Source: Pontixanthobacter sp. CEM42
GTDB taxonomy: Bacteria > Pseudomonadota > Alphaproteobacteria > Sphingomonadales > Sphingomonadaceae
Direction of reading: 5' to 3'
NCBI RefSeq assembly: GCF_017812015.1
Contig: NZ_JADQTN010000001.1
Location: forward strand, 846,501-910,500
DNA: 64,000 bases
Each line of letters opens with the position of its first letter. Positions within the stretch are counted from its first letter, which is position 1. Under the pieces are notes generated by a model, which worked only from the letters and a program-made list of their open reading frames with translations, did no database searches and was not told the origin of the DNA. This document shows positions 54,577 through 61,918 of the stretch, piece by piece. Made by a program: the position numbers and the translations under genes.

Positions 54577-55317
54577 TTACGAACAGGCGTTGGTCACGCC
54601 TTCTTTTTCAGCCGGATACGGGCCTGAACCCTTGGCCTCGGTGTAATTCGCGTCGATTGCATAGGCTGGCGCTGGTCCGGCAGGGGGTAGGGTCGATTGC
54701 CAATAGAACGTAATCGGTTCTGCCTGCTCCCACTGGTTGCCGCCACCACCGGCTTTGACCGACCAAATCAATGCGCCGTCTTTGCACGTTACAATGACGT
54801 CCGCCTTGTCGCCGACGGCAGCGAGTGCCTCTGCCTTGGAGTACCCCACAGAGCCGGTAAATCCGTGCGCGGGCCGCAGCATTTTGAACGCTGATGCACG
54901 TTCAATGTCGGAGGAATCATTTCCTGTCCCGCTTCCGGTATCAGGATTGTTGTCCTCACCCGGGTATATCACGTGAACGAATGTATAGACCGTTCCCTCC
55001 GGCGCTGTCTTCGGATCGCAAATATCCATCCCGTCGGGACAGGCGACATAGGACCGGATATCGGCAAAGCTGCCCTCGGCCGTGTCGAGTGTTCCTTTGA
55101 CTTCCGGACCTTGAGGCCCGACGATTTTTGCACCCAGCCTCAAATCCATAAAGTCACCTGCATCGAGGGCAGCGGCAATCGCAGCCGCCTCGCCATCGGT
55201 TTGTGCGACGGGCTCCATATCGGCCTTATCCATATCCGGCTCGGCCGAACATGCGGCGAGGGAAATAACGGCGGCGGTGGCGAGAAGTGAGCGGAATGCG
55301 GTGGTACTTGGGATCAT
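54577..55317 (-). CDS. hypothetical lipoprotein with Asp/Gly-rich middle
   Basis: 246 residues. VISLAAC is the lipobox (Cys23). The mature part has a DMDKADME acidic region, two Cys in ACPDGMDICDP that could pair, and an Asn/Asp/Gly stretch (DNNPDTGSGTGNDSSD), followed by an Ala/Val-rich domain with another Cys pair (VTCKDG … NACS). Family not recognised. Start overlaps the yqeY stop by four bases (ATGA-type coupling). Confidence 0.75.
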   Translation of the reverse strand: MIPSTTAFRSLLATAAVISLAACSAEPDMDKADMEPVAQTDGEAAAIAAALDAGDFMDLRLGAKIVGPQGPEVKGTLDTAEGSFADIRSYVACPDGMDICDPKTAPEGTVYTFVHVIYPGEDNNPDTGSGTGNDSSDIERASAFKMLRPAHGFTGSVGYSKAEALAAVGDKADVIVTCKDGALIWSVKAGGGGNQWEQAEPITFYWQSTLPPAGPAPAYAIDANYTEAKGSGPYPAEKEGVTNACS

Positions 55318-55766
55318 GTAAGGCTCTCTTTCACAAGTGAACTGGCTTTGCTCATATCCAGTTCAGCGCCGTGGCGCGCCTTTAGTTCCCCCATAACTTT
55401 ACCCATATCCTTAATGGATTCAGCGCCTTGCTCGGCTTTGATCGCCTCGATTGCAGCGCGGGTTTCTTCTTCGCTCATCTGCGTCGGAAGAAATTCCTCG
55501 ATTACCGCGAGTTCCGAGCGCTCTTTCGCGGCCAGCTCGTCACGCCCACCGTCAACATACATGGTTATCGATTCTTTTCGTTGCTTCGCCATTTTTAGCA
55601 AAACATCGGTCACCAGCGCCTCGTCATCCAATTCCTTGCTCGATGTGCGCAGTTCGATATCGCGGTCTTTGATCTTCGCGCCGATCAGGCGGAGCGTGGC
55701 GGTCCGCTCTTTGTTGCCTGCTTTCATGGAAGCGATGGTTACGGCTTTGATGGTGTCGCGAAGCAT
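55314..55766 (-). CDS. yqeY: GatB/YqeY domain protein
   Basis: 150 residues from the ATG at 55766. The sequence KTSS/ESITMYVDGGRDELAAKE, EEFLPTQMSEEE and DMGKVMGELKARHG matches YqeY, a tail-domain relative of GatB that may bind tRNA; its role is unsettled. It usually stands before dnaG, as here. Confidence 0.9.
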   Translation of the reverse strand: MLRDTIKAVTIASMKAGNKERTATLRLIGAKIKDRDIELRTSSKELDDEALVTDVLLKMAKQRKESITMYVDGGRDELAAKERSELAVIEEFLPTQMSEEETRAAIEAIKAEQGAESIKDMGKVMGELKARHGAELDMSKASSLVKESLT

Positions 55767-55929
55767 AATGGGGTGTTCCTGTCGGTAATTTTTCAAAATC
55801 GTGGGTAAACTGGTGATGCATTCGTAATAACGCAACTTTCCGTCGCTGGACAGGTTGACGCGCGCGCAGGGGGCCTATAGCCGCCGTGTCTTAGCAACAT
55901 CGCCGGAAAACCTTACTCGGAGCGTCACT

Positions 55930-57111
55930 ATGGCCCACGCCGCCTCAACTCCTGCGCAGCCTGATGGCGCGACCGGAGTCCTCGTTTTGGCGGATGGAAC
56001 CGTGATCTGGGGCAAAGGCTTCGGCGCCAGCGGCGATGCCGTGGGTGAAGTGTGCTTCAACACCAGCATGACCGGTTATCAGGAAGTGATGACGGACCCG
56101 TCATACGCCGCGCAGATCGTCACCTTCACCTTCCCGCATATCGGCAATGTCGGTGCCAATGGCGAGGATGTTGAGGGCAAGGTCGAAAGCGCCGTTGGCT
56201 GCGTGGTCCGCGAAGATGTGACGATGGCTGCCAACTTCCGCTCGGAACAGACCTTTACCGAATGGATGGCCGCGAACAATAAGATCGGTATTTCGGGCAT
56301 CGATACACGCGCATTGACGCGCCGCATCCGCCAGACTGGCGCGCCCAATGCGGTGATCGCGCATTCACCTGACGGAGAATTCGACATTCCGGCATTGCTG
56401 CAGCGCGCTCAGGAATGGGCAGGGCTGGAGGGTATGGACCTCGCTCAGCGGGTTACGCGTGACGAGCAACAGAATTGGGAAGGCGGCTATTGGACGCTTG
56501 AGGGTGGCTATGGCCGCGCCGCCCGCGATGCCACGCCCCACGTCGTCGCCATAGATTACGGCGCGAAGGACAATATCTTCCGCAATCTGGTGAAGGCTGG
56601 CGCGAAAGTCACCGTGGTTCCCGCAAAGACTGCGTTCGACGATATTATGGCGCTGAAGCCTGACGGTGTGTTCCTGTCCAACGGACCGGGCGATCCGGCG
56701 GCGACGGGGTCCTATGCGGTGCTGGTCATCAAAGCGCTGCTCGAGAAGGATGTGCCGCTATTCGGCATTTGCCTCGGCCACCAGATGCTCGCACTGGCGG
56801 CAGGCGCAAAGACCACCAAGATGCATCAAGGCCACCGCGGCGCAAACCACCCGGTCCAGCGTGTTGGTGAAGGGTGGGGGGACACCACCGGCCTAGTCGA
56901 AATCACCAGCATGAACCACGGTTTCGCAGTCGATGGCGACACTTTGCCCGATGCTGTCGAGGAAACGCATGTCAGCCTGTTTGACGGCTCCAATTGCGGT
57001 ATCGCGGTGAAGGGCAAAAAGGCGTTCGGCGTCCAATACCACCCCGAGGCCAGCCCCGGCCCGCAGGACAGCTTCTACCTGTTCGAGAAGTTTGTTGGAG
57101 GCTTGGGGTGA
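55930..57111 (+). CDS. carA: carbamoyl-phosphate synthase small subunit
   Basis: 393 residues from the ATG at 55930. The glutamine amidotransferase half has the catalytic Cys in FGICLGHQML and His/Glu in YHPEASPGPQ. Releases ammonia for CarB. Its stop overlaps the start of a small unknown gene (GTGA) rather than leading directly to carB. Confidence 0.96.
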   Translation: MAHAASTPAQPDGATGVLVLADGTVIWGKGFGASGDAVGEVCFNTSMTGYQEVMTDPSYAAQIVTFTFPHIGNVGANGEDVEGKVESAVGCVVREDVTMAANFRSEQTFTEWMAANNKIGISGIDTRALTRRIRQTGAPNAVIAHSPDGEFDIPALLQRAQEWAGLEGMDLAQRVTRDEQQNWEGGYWTLEGGYGRAARDATPHVVAIDYGAKDNIFRNLVKAGAKVTVVPAKTAFDDIMALKPDGVFLSNGPGDPAATGSYAVLVIKALLEKDVPLFGICLGHQMLALAAGAKTTKMHQGHRGANHPVQRVGEGWGDTTGLVEITSMNHGFAVDGDTLPDAVEETHVSLFDGSNCGIAVKGKKAFGVQYHPEASPGPQDSFYLFEKFVGGLG

Positions 57112-57512
57112 GTGAGCCAGACATAAATCAAATCCGCGACCGCCTATTGCTCGAACTTGTTCGGCGGAATGCAACGAATCAAAAGCCAATGAACCCCTTG
57201 ATTGTGAGTGAGGAAATTTGGCCAGATGTTGATTGGAAAAATCAAGCTGCAACTGTTCGAAGTGCGGCATTTTTGCTCACTAAGAACGAGCCGAAGTTTG
57301 CTAAACGAGTAATTGATAGTGAAGGACCTGGTTTGGTTCTAATTGCTCAGACTGCAGCAGGAAAGTCTGCGGCTGCGCACCTCGAAGCTTCGCCAGAAAC
57401 TAATACAAGTCCGTCGAGAGATTGGACTAAAATCGGCGCGATAGCCGCATGGATAATGATCCCACTTACCATTCTTGGGTTAGTCATAATGTATTGCTTG
57501 GACAAAACCTAA
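57108..57512 (+). CDS. unknown protein, predicted winged helix plus C-terminal membrane anchor, between carA and carB
   Basis: 134 residues, GTG start overlapping the carA stop by four bases and TAATG overlap with carB, so it is translationally coupled on both sides. Residues 1-75 look like a winged helix: [13 protein letters not shown], then a polar helix, [12 protein letters not shown] and a wing-like [14 protein letters not shown]. Residues 75-100 are a polar linker ([12 protein letters not shown]) and 105-131 a single membrane helix, ending CLDKT. No Walker or enzyme motif is present. The gene is visibly AT-richer than carA and carB. It is not a carbamoyl-phosphate synthase part known to me; a membrane-tethered regulator is a guess from shape only. 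Confidence 0.7.
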
Positions 57513-60500
57513 TGCCCAAAAGAACAGACATTTCCTCGATCCTCGTTATTGGCGCTGGTCCTATTATTATCGGGCAGGCGTGCGAGTTTGATTATTCCGG
57601 CACCCAGGCGATCAAGGCGCTGAAGGAGGAGGGCTATCGCGTCATCCTCGTCAATTCCAACCCGGCCACGATTATGACCGATCCGGAATTTGCTGATGCG
57701 ACTTATATCGAGCCAATCACGCCTGAAATCGTCGCCAAGATTATCGAGAAAGAGCGCCCCGATGCGGTGCTGCCGACGATGGGCGGGCAGACGGCGTTGA
57801 ACTGCGCCTTGTCGCTCGAGTCCATGGGTGTGCTGGAGAAATTCGGCGTTCAGATGATCGGCGCCGATGCCGAAGCCATCGACAAGGCGGAAGACCGCCA
57901 GAAATTCCGCGATGCGATGGATAAGATCGGCCTCGAAAGCGCGCGCAGCGGTGTCGCGCATTCGGTCGAAGAAGCGCAGGAAATCGTCAAGCGCACCGGC
58001 CTGCCGAGCATTATCCGCCCCAGCTTCACCCTTGGCGGAACCGGCGGCGGCATCGCCTATAACAAGGCCGAGTTCGAGCGGATCGTCCGCGAAGGGCTGG
58101 AAGCCAGTCCGACCACCGAGGTTCTGATCGAGGAATCGCTGCTCGGTTGGAAAGAATATGAAATGGAAGTCGTCCGTGACAAGGCGGACAATTGCATCAT
58201 CATCTGTTCGATTGAAAATGTCGATCCGATGGGCGTGCATACGGGCGACAGCATCACCGTGGCTCCCGCGCTGACGCTGACCGACAAAGAATATCAGATC
58301 ATGCGCAATGCCAGCATCGCGGTTCTGCGCGAGATCGGCGTCGAAACCGGCGGATCGAATGTACAGTTTGCCGTCAATCCGGCAGATGGCCGCTTGATCG
58401 TGATCGAAATGAACCCGCGCGTTTCGCGGTCGTCAGCATTGGCGTCCAAAGCTACCGGCTTCCCGATTGCGCGTGTCGCAGCGAAGCTGGCGGTAGGCTA
58501 TACGCTCGACGAAATTACCAACGAGATCACCGGCGCTACACCGGCGAGCTTTGAGCCTACTATCGATTACGTGGTTACCAAGATCCCGCGTTTTGCGTTC
58601 GAGAAGTTCAAAGGCGCCAAAGACGAGCTCGCCACGGCGATGAAATCGGTCGGCGAAGTCATGGCGATTGGCCGCAACTTTCAGGAATCGATGCAAAAGG
58701 CATTGCGCGGTCTGGAAACCGACCTCGACGGCTTTAACCGGGTTACAGAACTCGAAGGCGTGAGCCGCGATGTTCTGACCGGTTCGCTCTCCAAACGCTC
58801 CCCCGACCGCATTCTGAAAGTCGCTCAGGCTTTCCGCGAAGGCTTGAGTGTTGAGGATATCAACCAGATCACAGGCTACGACACATGGTTCCTGCGCCAG
58901 ATCGAAGAGATCATCGCGGCGGAAAAGGACGTTTCCGAGAACGGTCTGCCCAATGATGCCGCGGGTCTGCGCAAGCTGAAATCAATGGGCTTCTCCGATA
59001 AACGTCTTGCCACTTTGGCGGTGCGTTCGGTCGGCGTGGCAGGCGGCATGGGCGAAACCCAAGCGCGCCGTTCCGGCTTGCTCCACGATGCATTGCAGGC
59101 GATGGCCGGCGCGACGTCTGAAGACGAAGTCCGCGATTTGCGGCGCAAGTTGGGCGTTCTGCCAGTATTCAAACGCATCGATAGCTGCGCGGCGGAGTTC
59201 GAGGCGATCACGCCCTACATGTACTCGACTTACGAGGCACCGACTCTCGGCGAGCCCGAGTGCGAAGCGGACACGTCCGACCGCCGCAAGATCGTCATTC
59301 TCGGCGGCGGTCCGAACCGGATCGGGCAGGGGATCGAGTTCGACTATTGCTGCGTCCACGCCTGTTTCGCACTCGCCGAAGCTGGCTTCGAAACGATCAT
59401 GGTCAATTGCAACCCGGAAACAGTCTCGACTGACTATGACACCTCTGACCGACTCTATTTCGAACCGCTAACAGTCGAGGATGTGCTCGAAATTCTGCGC
59501 GTTGAACAGCAATCCGGCGAGCTTGTCGGAGTAATTGTGCAATTTGGCGGCATGACACCGCTGAAACTGGCGCAGGCGCTGGAGGATGAGGGCATTCCAA
59601 TCCTCGGCACTAGCCCCGATGCAATCGACCTCGCCGAGGACCGCGAGCGGTTTGCAAAACTGGTGAACGAGCTGAAGCTTAAACAGCCGGAAAACGGCAT
59701 TGCATACAGCCGCGATGAAGCTGCGGCTGTCGCATCATCCATCGGCTATCCGGTACTGCTGCGTCCATCCTATGTCCTTGGCGGTCGCGCGATGGAAATT
59801 GTCGACAGCGAGGCGCAGCTCGATGATTACATCAAAACCGCGGTGAATGTTTCCGGCGATAGTCCAGTGTTGGTCGACCAATATCTGCGCGACGCAATCG
59901 AGTGCGATGTCGACGTGATTTGCGATGGTGATCAGGTCGTCGTCGCGGGCGTGATGCAGCATATCGAAGAAGCAGGTGTCCACTCGGGCGATAGCGCTTG
60001 CACGATCCCGCCCTATTCACTGCCCGCCGATATCGTCACTGAAATGGAAGTTCAGGCGGAAGCGCTGGCGAAAAGTCTAGGCGTTCTGGGCCTGATGAAT
60101 GTCCAGTTCGCGGTGAAAGATGGCGAAGTCTATCTGATCGAAGTCAATCCGCGTGCAAGCCGGACAGTGCCTTTCGTTGCCAAAGCCATTGGACAGCCCG
60201 TTGCAAAGGTCGCATCACGCGTAATGGCAGGTGAGAAGATCGACACATTCCCCGCATTCAAGCGCGACCTGGACTATATGGCGGTCAAAGAGGCCGTGTT
60301 CCCGTTCGGGCGTTTCCCCGGCGCTGATCCGGTTTTGACTCCAGAAATGAAGTCGACTGGCGAAGTCATGGGCATCGACCACGATTTCCCGACCGCATTC
60401 CTGAAATCGCAGCTTGGCGCAGGTGTGACTTTGCCCGAAGCCGGCGTTGTATTTGTCTCGGTGAAAACGGGCGATAAACCGATTATCGTGCCAGCGGTCA

Positions 60501-60835
60501 AAACGCTGGTTGAATGCGGCTTCACGATCATCGCGACCGGCGGAACACAACGCTATCTCAGCGAGCAGGGCTTGCCAGTCGAGCGCGTGAACAAGGTCGC
60601 CGAAGGACAGCCGCATATTGTCGACAAAATGATCGATGGCGAGGTCGATCTGGTAATTAATACGACCGAGGGTTGGCAGAGTATGATCGACAGCAAATCG
60701 ATCCGTGCAACGGCGCTGGAAATGAAGATTCCATACTATACCACAGCCGCCGCATCACTCGCCACGGCAGAGGCAATTCGTCTGGTAAAGCCCGCTACGC
60801 TTGAAGTGCGCTCGCTTCAGGACTATTATAGCTGA
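57512..60835 (+). CDS. carB: carbamoyl-phosphate synthase large subunit
   Basis: 1107 residues. Two homologous ATP-grasp halves ([17 protein letters not shown] in the first, [16 protein letters not shown] in the second) phosphorylate bicarbonate and carbamate, with the oligomerisation domain between them and a C-terminal MGS-like allosteric domain (from about residue 960, [13 protein letters not shown]). Feeds pyrimidine and arginine synthesis. Confidence 0.97.
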
Positions 60836-60946
60836 GAAACAGACGACTTTTCCCGACATTCAATCCGGTATCAGTCGCTCCTGATGGGGCGGCACGGCGC
60901 TGAATTGTCTTTCGGTTCAGGTCTTTAGATAAGATTGAGAGTTACG

Positions 60947-61414
60947 ATGGAAAAGGTTCCAATGCTGGCCGAGGGCTACGAAAAGCTCACGACAGAACTC
61001 AAAGAGCTGCGTGCAGAGCGCCCGAAAATTGTCGATGCGATCGAAGAAGCGCGCGCGCATGGTGACCTTTCCGAGAACGCGGAGTATCACGCGGCGAAGG
61101 AACGTCAGGGCCAGGTTGAGGCTATGATTGGTGATATCGAGAGCAAGGTAACCCGCGCGCAGATCATCGATCCAAAGACGCTGTCGGGCGACCGCGTTGT
61201 CTTTGGTGCGACTGTCACGCTGCTCGATGATGATGACAAACCGGTGAAATACCAGATTGTTGGTGAGACCGAGGCTGAGGCGGCTAAGGGCCGTATCTCT
61301 TACAGCTCACCGCTAGGCCGTGCATTGATTGGTAAAGATCTGGGTGATGAAGTCGAAGTGACGGTTCCGTCAGGCGACAAGTTCTACCTGATCGAGAAAA
61401 TCCAATATATTTGA
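60947..61414 (+). CDS. greA: transcription elongation factor GreA
   Basis: 155 residues from the ATG at 60947. The N-terminal coiled coil carries the acidic tip in [17 protein letters not shown], which reaches into RNA polymerase to stimulate cleavage of backtracked RNA; the C-terminal globular domain has [14 protein letters not shown]. 111 bases after carB. Confidence 0.97.
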
Positions 61415-61429
61415 TGGTGTTGAGGGCGC

Positions 61430-61918
61430 TTAGCTTAGCGTCTTTTCCATCGCGAAATTGTGGATCGGCACAGACTGACCGTCATGGTCGATCGTGAAGT
61501 CGCGTCGCTCTGTAACGACATATCCGGCGCGCTCAAATGCCGGACGAGCGAGTTCGCTAGCTTCGGTATAGAGCTTGGCTAAACCCAAACCCCGCGCATG
61601 GTATTCAGCGCGTGCCAGGACTTTGTCAGCTAGTCCCTGACGTGTGTGATCGGGGTGGCAATAGAGCATGTCCAGATGCCCGTCCGGTTCCAGCAGCGAA
61701 TAGGCGACAGCTTTGTCATCTGCATCGACAGTCACAAACACTATATGACCAGAATGCACGCGTTCGCGCAGGCGATCTGCCGAGCTGTGACGAGCAGCCC
61801 ATGCATCGACTTGCGCTTGTGAATAACCGGCTAGCCCGACCGTCCTGATCGCCGCCAAGGTTAGGTCGTGGATCGTTTCCGCGTCGCTGTCGGCATATTC
61901 GCGGACACGATAATTCAT
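61430..61918 (-). CDS. GNAT-family N-acetyltransferase
   Basis: 162 residues. The acetyl-CoA site is LDMLYCHPDHTRQGLADKVLA, with the Q/RxxGxA pyrophosphate loop slightly modified (RQGLAD). The ending LYTEASELARPAFERAGYVV is standard. Substrate unknown. Confidence 0.82.
   Translation of the reverse strand: MNYRVREYADSDAETIHDLTLAAIRTVGLAGYSQAQVDAWAARHSSADRLRERVHSGHIVFVTVDADDKAVAYSLLEPDGHLDMLYCHPDHTRQGLADKVLARAEYHARGLGLAKLYTEASELARPAFERAGYVVTERRDFTIDHDGQSVPIHNFAMEKTLS

Follow-up and report, generated by a model that had tools for sequence, protein, structure and literature searches.

Genomic islands at sites such as dusA and prfC have a partial copy of the target 5′ end at one border, and the target gene is restored. 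In Neisseria gonorrhoeae, carA and carB are separated by a spacer of variable length consisting largely of non-coding repeats, as Lawson and co-workers reportedly found in 1995. Minimal mobile elements, as outlined in parts of two articles (PMC3082526, PMC3898611), are regions between two conserved genes that hold differing whole-gene cassettes placed by homologous recombination; the same parts attribute the minimal mobile elements of Neisseria to Saunders and Snyder (2002). In Pseudomonas aeruginosa and in Xanthomonas citri, the operon has the order carA-orf-carB, and the two intervening ORFs are mutually dissimilar according to the section of the account that deals with them (PMC4619228). 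The carA riboswitch candidate presented in part of another article (PMC8632094) belongs to betaproteobacteria and to the DNA upstream of carA, and was set aside as not relevant. In the open-access literature, no account was found of a carA–carB slot in Sphingomonadales.

The window analysed here is a stretch of 64,000 nucleotides from Pontixanthobacter sp. CEM42 (contig NZ_JADQTN010000001.1, positions 846,501 to 910,500 of the forward strand). On its forward strand, carA (55930..57111, recognised as CarA by eye) and carB (57512..60835) are the left and right conserved flanks of a slot, whose present tenant is a gene encoding 134 amino acids (57108..57512). The sequence-only reading had described this ORF correctly: it has 134 codons, a GTGA start/stop overlap with carA at 57108..57111 and a TAATG stop/start overlap with carB at 57510..57514, both of which were read in the sequence. 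The gene was also confirmed to be AT-richer than its neighbours, with a GC content of 46.3% against 61.1% for carA and 57.2% for carB. The single C-terminal membrane helix claimed for the protein was recovered by a hydropathy scan, which gave one strong segment from residue 109. When the protein was modelled by AlphaFold2 from the single sequence (mean pLDDT 67.7), the elements obtained were a helix (residues 6–22), a strand (31–33), a helix (43–60), two strands (67–70 and 76–79) and a long helix (106–133). The predicted helix-strand-helix-strand-strand domain of codons 6–79 (57123..57344, forward strand) has an order of elements that would suit a winged helix, although the fold matches from structure searches were equivocal. 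Codons 106–133 (57423..57506, forward strand) are the predicted membrane helix by both hydropathy and the model. No promoter- or terminator-like site was found in 55700–57700, and nothing in Rfam matched across 55300–61500.

The gap between carA and carB was surveyed in 144 genomes of Sphingomonadaceae with both genes on one contig, namely 140 of 149 drawn genomes and four congeners; the other nine drawn genomes were dropped, since they lacked one of the two genes or had them on different contigs. carA was located with the C-terminal part of CarA as query, which gave one match in 144 of the 149 genomes. The gap ranged from −8 to 2202 nt. It was empty (<10 nt) in 18 genomes, measured 10–149 nt in 14, and was filled (at least 150 nt) in 112. 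At the empty sites the carA stop was TAA in 14 of 18; at the filled sites it was TGA in 99 of 112, and ATGA, GTGA or TTGA stood at the carA stop in 94. TAATG preceded carB in 53 of the 112 filled and 8 of the 18 empty gaps. A forward ORF of at least 40 residues started at −4 or −1 in 95 filled gaps. A single forward ORF ran across the whole gap, from −4 or −1 to between −6 and +1 of carB, in 55 of the 112. In order-1 Markov copies of those 55 gaps, only 2.2 gap-spanning ORFs were expected. As tenants often share bases with the stop of carA and the start of carB, they are placed for co-transcription and co-translation with CarA and CarB.

The slot exists across Sphingomonadaceae, and it is either empty or holds unrelated small genes even between congeners. 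Several expectations raised from the sequence alone have to be revised in this light. It had been stated that carA and carB are normally adjacent or have a non-coding spacer; with 112 of 144 gaps filled, the presence of a gene here is nothing out of the ordinary. Two-sided coupling had been called unexpected for an insertion, which is wrong here, as 55 of 112 filled gaps have a spanning ORF with such overlaps; overlaps at both ends are so common among tenants that they are not peculiar to the window gene. The suggestion of an insertion itself is supported, since the gap is a hypervariable slot that is empty in 18 of 144 genomes. The other suggestion, a regulator or partner of carbamoyl phosphate synthesis, is not supported as a general rule, because the occupant may be absent, an RraB, a DUF6680 protein, a DUF559 nuclease, a PIN toxin or a lipoprotein-like protein (by eye).

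The gaps contained 148 ORFs, mostly unrelated and unnameable, 61 of which were BLASTP singletons. Alignment A1 comprised 120 of the 148, among which a few run antisense to DUF559 genes. When 120 gap ORFs were compared with Pfam at E ≤ 0.01, RraB was obtained 19 times, DUF6680 four times and five families once each. NCBIfam recognised RraB in 14 tenants and one other family once, the PADLOC defence library gave one weak match for 120 tenants, and PHROGs gave three matches, one each. Ten reverse-strand gap ORFs were also scanned with Pfam, of which four were DUF559 and six PIN-domain proteins. Further reverse genes in the gaps, beyond the ten covered by the Pfam scan, resemble the DUF559 and PIN types. 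It may be noted that related TGCAAT-rich sequence lies just before carB in eight gaps with PIN-type reverse genes (L047, L091, L107, L137, L142, L145, L157 and L170; in L157 in part only), the PIN-type assignment being confirmed by Pfam for four of these eight; a ninth PIN-type unit, L080, is without it. GC-rich palindromes were seen in the DUF559-type nuclease elements of L028, L029, L047, L064 and L085 (L028 and L064 Pfam-checked). RraB, the ribonuclease E inhibitor family, is a recurrent tenant in part of Sphingomonadaceae. Five pairs of RraB tenants gave dN/dS values of 0.08–0.22, indicating purifying selection.

Turnover of the tenants was evident at short distances. Six genomes of the window's genus, the window's own included, had a readable gap, and they had six different first tenants; only the congeners G259 and G291 shared something by BLASTP, a DUF559-type element. 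When pairs of filled gaps were grouped by identity over the first 300 nt of carB, a homologous gap ORF was present in 5 of 12 pairs at 95% or above, in 12 of 80 at 92–95%, and in 3.6–6.5% of pairs in five lower bands. For L030 and L046, winged-helix-like tenants from two genera, the synonymous distance was not computable and was taken as saturated, compared with a carB dS of 0.54; this agrees better with exchange than with descent from a common ancestor at the same site. In most comparisons, the sliding identity to congeners near the junction equalled or exceeded that of the rest of carA and carB, so that the swaps leave no clear footprint of a foreign flank.

One group of tenants was found to be nearly confined to the slot. 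Nine tenants with a winged-helix-like start, most of them with a PASDRxVxLxHN-type motif, were aligned (A3), and the profile matched 10 of 149 whole genomes, always in the carA–carB gap; one of the ten was not a profile input. A profile of 12 rows (A5) matched 29 of 397 whole genomes. Between carA and carB lay 26 of the 29 matches, or 14 of 17 when profile members were left out. The 26 slot genes, a set that contains the 12 profile inputs, have an in-frame start at −4 in 24 cases and a stop within −4 to +1 of the carB ATG in 21. The three copies outside the slot lie near unnamed ORFs (L364), a serine-recombinase-like ORF (L369) and an adenine-methylase-like ORF (L379), the neighbours being judged by eye. 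A profile of 28 winged-helix-like proteins reached, beyond its own rows, the membrane-tailed tenants L082, L068, L097 and L028 (E 5e-6 to 2e-4), the best reversed-sequence match being at E 0.26. The lipoprotein tenant family A4 gave nine matches at E ≤ 2e-13, five in the slot (all inputs) and four elsewhere; a short part of its profile matched weakly in most of the 149 genomes. The near-exclusive location of the winged-helix-like family would also fit a working link of that family with CarAB.

Relatives of the window protein itself were then sought. Nothing usable was obtained from Pfam, PHROGs or NCBIfam, or from plasmids, phages, viral contigs and genome contigs. The best match among PDB sequences (E 0.013) was to an unrelated cytochrome, and the 298 family genomes returned the window gene itself and otherwise noise (best E 0.0045, with an internal stop). 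Against 156 slot proteins, ranked by shuffled z-score, L083 (8.2), L039 (6.4) and L068 (6.3) came out on top, followed by L372, the same gene as L039, and then by a z of 3.4. All three are winged-helix-like slot tenants with membrane tails, the winged-helix labels in this ranking being assigned by eye or by profile A5. The pairwise match to L083 had an E of 1e-5 (31% over 88 columns with gaps) and that to L068 an E of 0.001; with L068 the window protein also shares the motif DWTKxxAIAAxxxIP (codons 105–119 of the tenant gene, forward strand), 10 of 15 residues being identical. hhalign gave 71.5% for the L039/L068 pair, but confined to 27 columns of the membrane segment; for L083 it gave 39% over 90 columns, and for all other groups tried at most 2.3%.

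Profile searches did not place the window protein at significant levels: E was 2.7 with the profile of 28 winged-helix-like proteins, 0.79 and 0.09 with two winged-helix-only profiles, and 0.13–0.68 with earlier profiles, where one reversed control reached 0.012. Profile A5 did not match it at E ≤ 0.001 in the 397 whole genomes. Profile A2, which includes the window protein, recovered eight of its nine inputs in 149 genomes, the genome of the ninth being outside the draw, and also gave three weak matches that do not lie in the slot (E 6e-5 to 8e-4). The PASDRxVxLxHN-type motif, which lies in the C-terminal half of the A3 core proteins, is absent from the window protein, as it is from L039, L068 and L130; the window protein was therefore not filed in the A3 core group. 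The gene has the anatomy of a tenant, being located between carA and carB with a −4 start overlap. As L083, L039 and L068 are its top matches while the profile matches are not significant, the window protein is called a probable, unproven member of the winged-helix-like tenants of the slot, one lacking the PASDR module.

Copies of the flanking genes were looked for in the 123 gaps of at least 60 nt. A profile made from 144 carB starts gave 13 matches in 12 gaps at E < 0.01, all of which begin at carB nt 1; the reversed gaps gave none at E < 1. A carA-tail profile gave one match at E < 0.01, in L032, and none in reversed gaps. Some slots thus have truncated direct copies of the carB 5′ end to the left of the insert, and one has a copy of the carA 3′ end. 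In L032 (genome G120), the second, partial carA 3′ end stands before a second tenant, as if a donor carA tail and its tenant had been taken in. The carB copies extend over 27 to about 140 nt of the head, or 150 when a longer model is used, and are followed by new sequence and then by the full carB. Three units were seen in L047, two of them weak (E 0.010 and 0.37), and two in L085 (E 1e-9 and 0.008); in L056 the profile found one, and a second was recognised by eye. Some copies form the left border of DUF559-type elements, with joints at carB nt 26–49 (L028, L029, L047, L064 and L085). Others run in frame into small lipoprotein-like or secreted genes, and the 15-residue start of CarB then appears as the signal-peptide start of carB-headed lipoprotein-like genes, signal peptides and lipoboxes being judged by eye. 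The first 7–15 codons of the small lipoprotein-like gene copy the carB start in L053, L070, L085, L047 and L056; L042 (E 0.019) and L045 (E 0.14) are weaker carB-headed cases. The arrangement suggests that new DNA may enter at the carB start and bring with it a carB head that restores the gene. In the window gap, the profile search found no carB-head copy.

Other junctions and other bacteria were examined for comparison. At pheS–pheT, used as a control, the gap was −4 in 29 loci and +3 in one (30 loci out of 58 pheS matches). At leuC–leuD, 15 of 25 gaps exceeded 100 nt (25 of 30 leuC loci also gave leuD), and at trpB–trpA 11 of 27 did, mostly without long ORFs (27 of 29 trpB loci gave trpA). 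The idea that carAB is the sole variable junction was rejected, as leuC–leuD varies too; carAB is a strong, though not unique, hot junction. The leuC–leuD loci (L282–L311) represent a second variable junction in the family, and some of their gaps carry a small similar membrane ORF. No leuD-head or trpA-head copies were found below E 0.1, in what are weak controls of 7.6 and 2.7 kb compared with 71 kb for carAB. A wider sample consisted of 80 named records found by CarB and grouped by record title; in 20 of them the flank contained no carA. Among the 12 records named Sphingomonadales, 11 had gaps of at least 349 nt and one of −1, and 7 of 47 other named records had a gap of at least 150 nt. The one record from an unclassified alphaproteobacterial MAG had a carA–carB gap of 511 nt. 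In the named sample, 2 of 27 gaps matched the carB head, the match starting at nt 1 in L182 and at nt 7 in L183.

Taken together, we consider it probable that the window gene is the current tenant of a swappable carA–carB slot resembling a minimal mobile element, and not a fixed partner of CarAB. Tenants would be exchanged through recombination within the two conserved flanking genes, in the manner of minimal mobile elements; in some cases one end might be homologous and the other not, or a molecule carrying a tenant and a carB head might enter by a single crossover. The coupled junction would select inserts that keep carB translated. No donor–recipient pair for flank recombination was found among the genomes compared. 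The window protein may belong to the slot's own class of tenants, as a winged-helix protein that has diverged fast and is tethered to the membrane. Most likely it would act as a DNA-binding regulator in an accessory role of its own; it would borrow the steady expression of the operon and would not be required for carbamoyl phosphate synthesis. If the winged-helix-like tenants, the window's included, were instead dedicated CarAB regulators or partners made in proportion and lost or replaced in most lineages, their confinement to the slot (26 of 29 A5 matches, 14 of 17 without inputs) with the same overlaps would be expected, and the lipoprotein family A4 is indeed less confined. Slot exchange alone would, however, confine a family as well; only 29 of 397 genomes were matched, most having unrelated tenants or none, and three copies lie outside, near recombinase-like, methylase-like and unnamed ORFs (L369, L379 and L364). 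We regard such a partnership as unlikely.

The order of truncated carB head, insert and full carB in 12 of 123 gaps, together with the tandem units of L047, L085 and L056, could also reflect small cassettes that use the first few dozen carB nucleotides as a joining site, site-specifically or by single crossover, the window tenant then being an old or decayed case. The DUF559-type joints at 26–49 nt in five gaps and the TGCAAT-rich sequence before carB in 8 of the 9 PIN-type units inspected would agree with this. The joint positions nevertheless vary from 26 to about 150, L032 duplicates carA instead, no recombinase family appeared in 130 gap ORFs scanned with Pfam, and the window lacks a carB-head copy. 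The explanation is considered quite improbable. A broader proposal, to which we give a low chance, is that the junction is a self-propagating cassette site: each insert would leave a carB start, restoring carB and seeding new CarB-headed lipoproteins through ready-made translation starts and signal peptides, with the winged-helix family as a resident. It is very improbable that the window ORF is open by chance, or is decaying DNA, and yields no product. No close homologue came up in the 298 genomes of the family, in plasmids or phages, or in viral or genome contigs, and the GC content is unlike that of the neighbours, but the frame has a P of 0.0004 in order-1 Markov versions of the gap, 55 spanning ORFs stand against 2.2 expected for the class, and other tenants (the five RraB pairs, dN/dS 0.08–0.22) are under purifying selection.

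On the reading of a swappable slot, small unknown genes dock in an essential biosynthetic operon across the whole family, and their turnover can be counted. The slot provides a ready-made set of some hundred proteins, most of them nameless, and a natural test of insert survival inside coupled genes. In addition, there are apparent cases in which the beginning of an unrelated enzyme, CarB, has been turned into a signal peptide.

The slot shares with the spacer reported from N. gonorrhoeae a variable length of DNA between carA and carB. It resembles the islands at dusA and prfC in the partial 5′ copy that stands at one border of some inserts, with the target gene restored, and differs from them in that no integrase was seen among the ORFs scanned, the gaps do not exceed 2.2 kb and the joints vary. 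It shares with the P. aeruginosa and X. citri operons an ORF that separates carA from carB, and the downstream greA (PMC4619228); the ORFs there are reported as single cases, and the portion of that account dealing with the operons does not mention slot turnover or carB-head copies. The likeness to minimal mobile elements lies in the two conserved flanking genes, carA and carB, on one contig in 144 genomes; in such elements the whole-gene cassettes differ between strains, and here the tenants differ between species. The duplicated carB head or carA tail in some slots would fit the flank recombination of such elements; the sliding identity of the flanks gives no clear footprint. Unlike the Neisseria elements, the slot was compared between species and genera, lies inside one operon and has two-sided start/stop overlaps; it also shows carB heads in duplicate and a tenant family bound to the slot, and homologous recombination is here inferred. 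In its layout, the carA–carB slot thus fits a minimal mobile element, with tenants that would be exchanged by recombination in the flanks.
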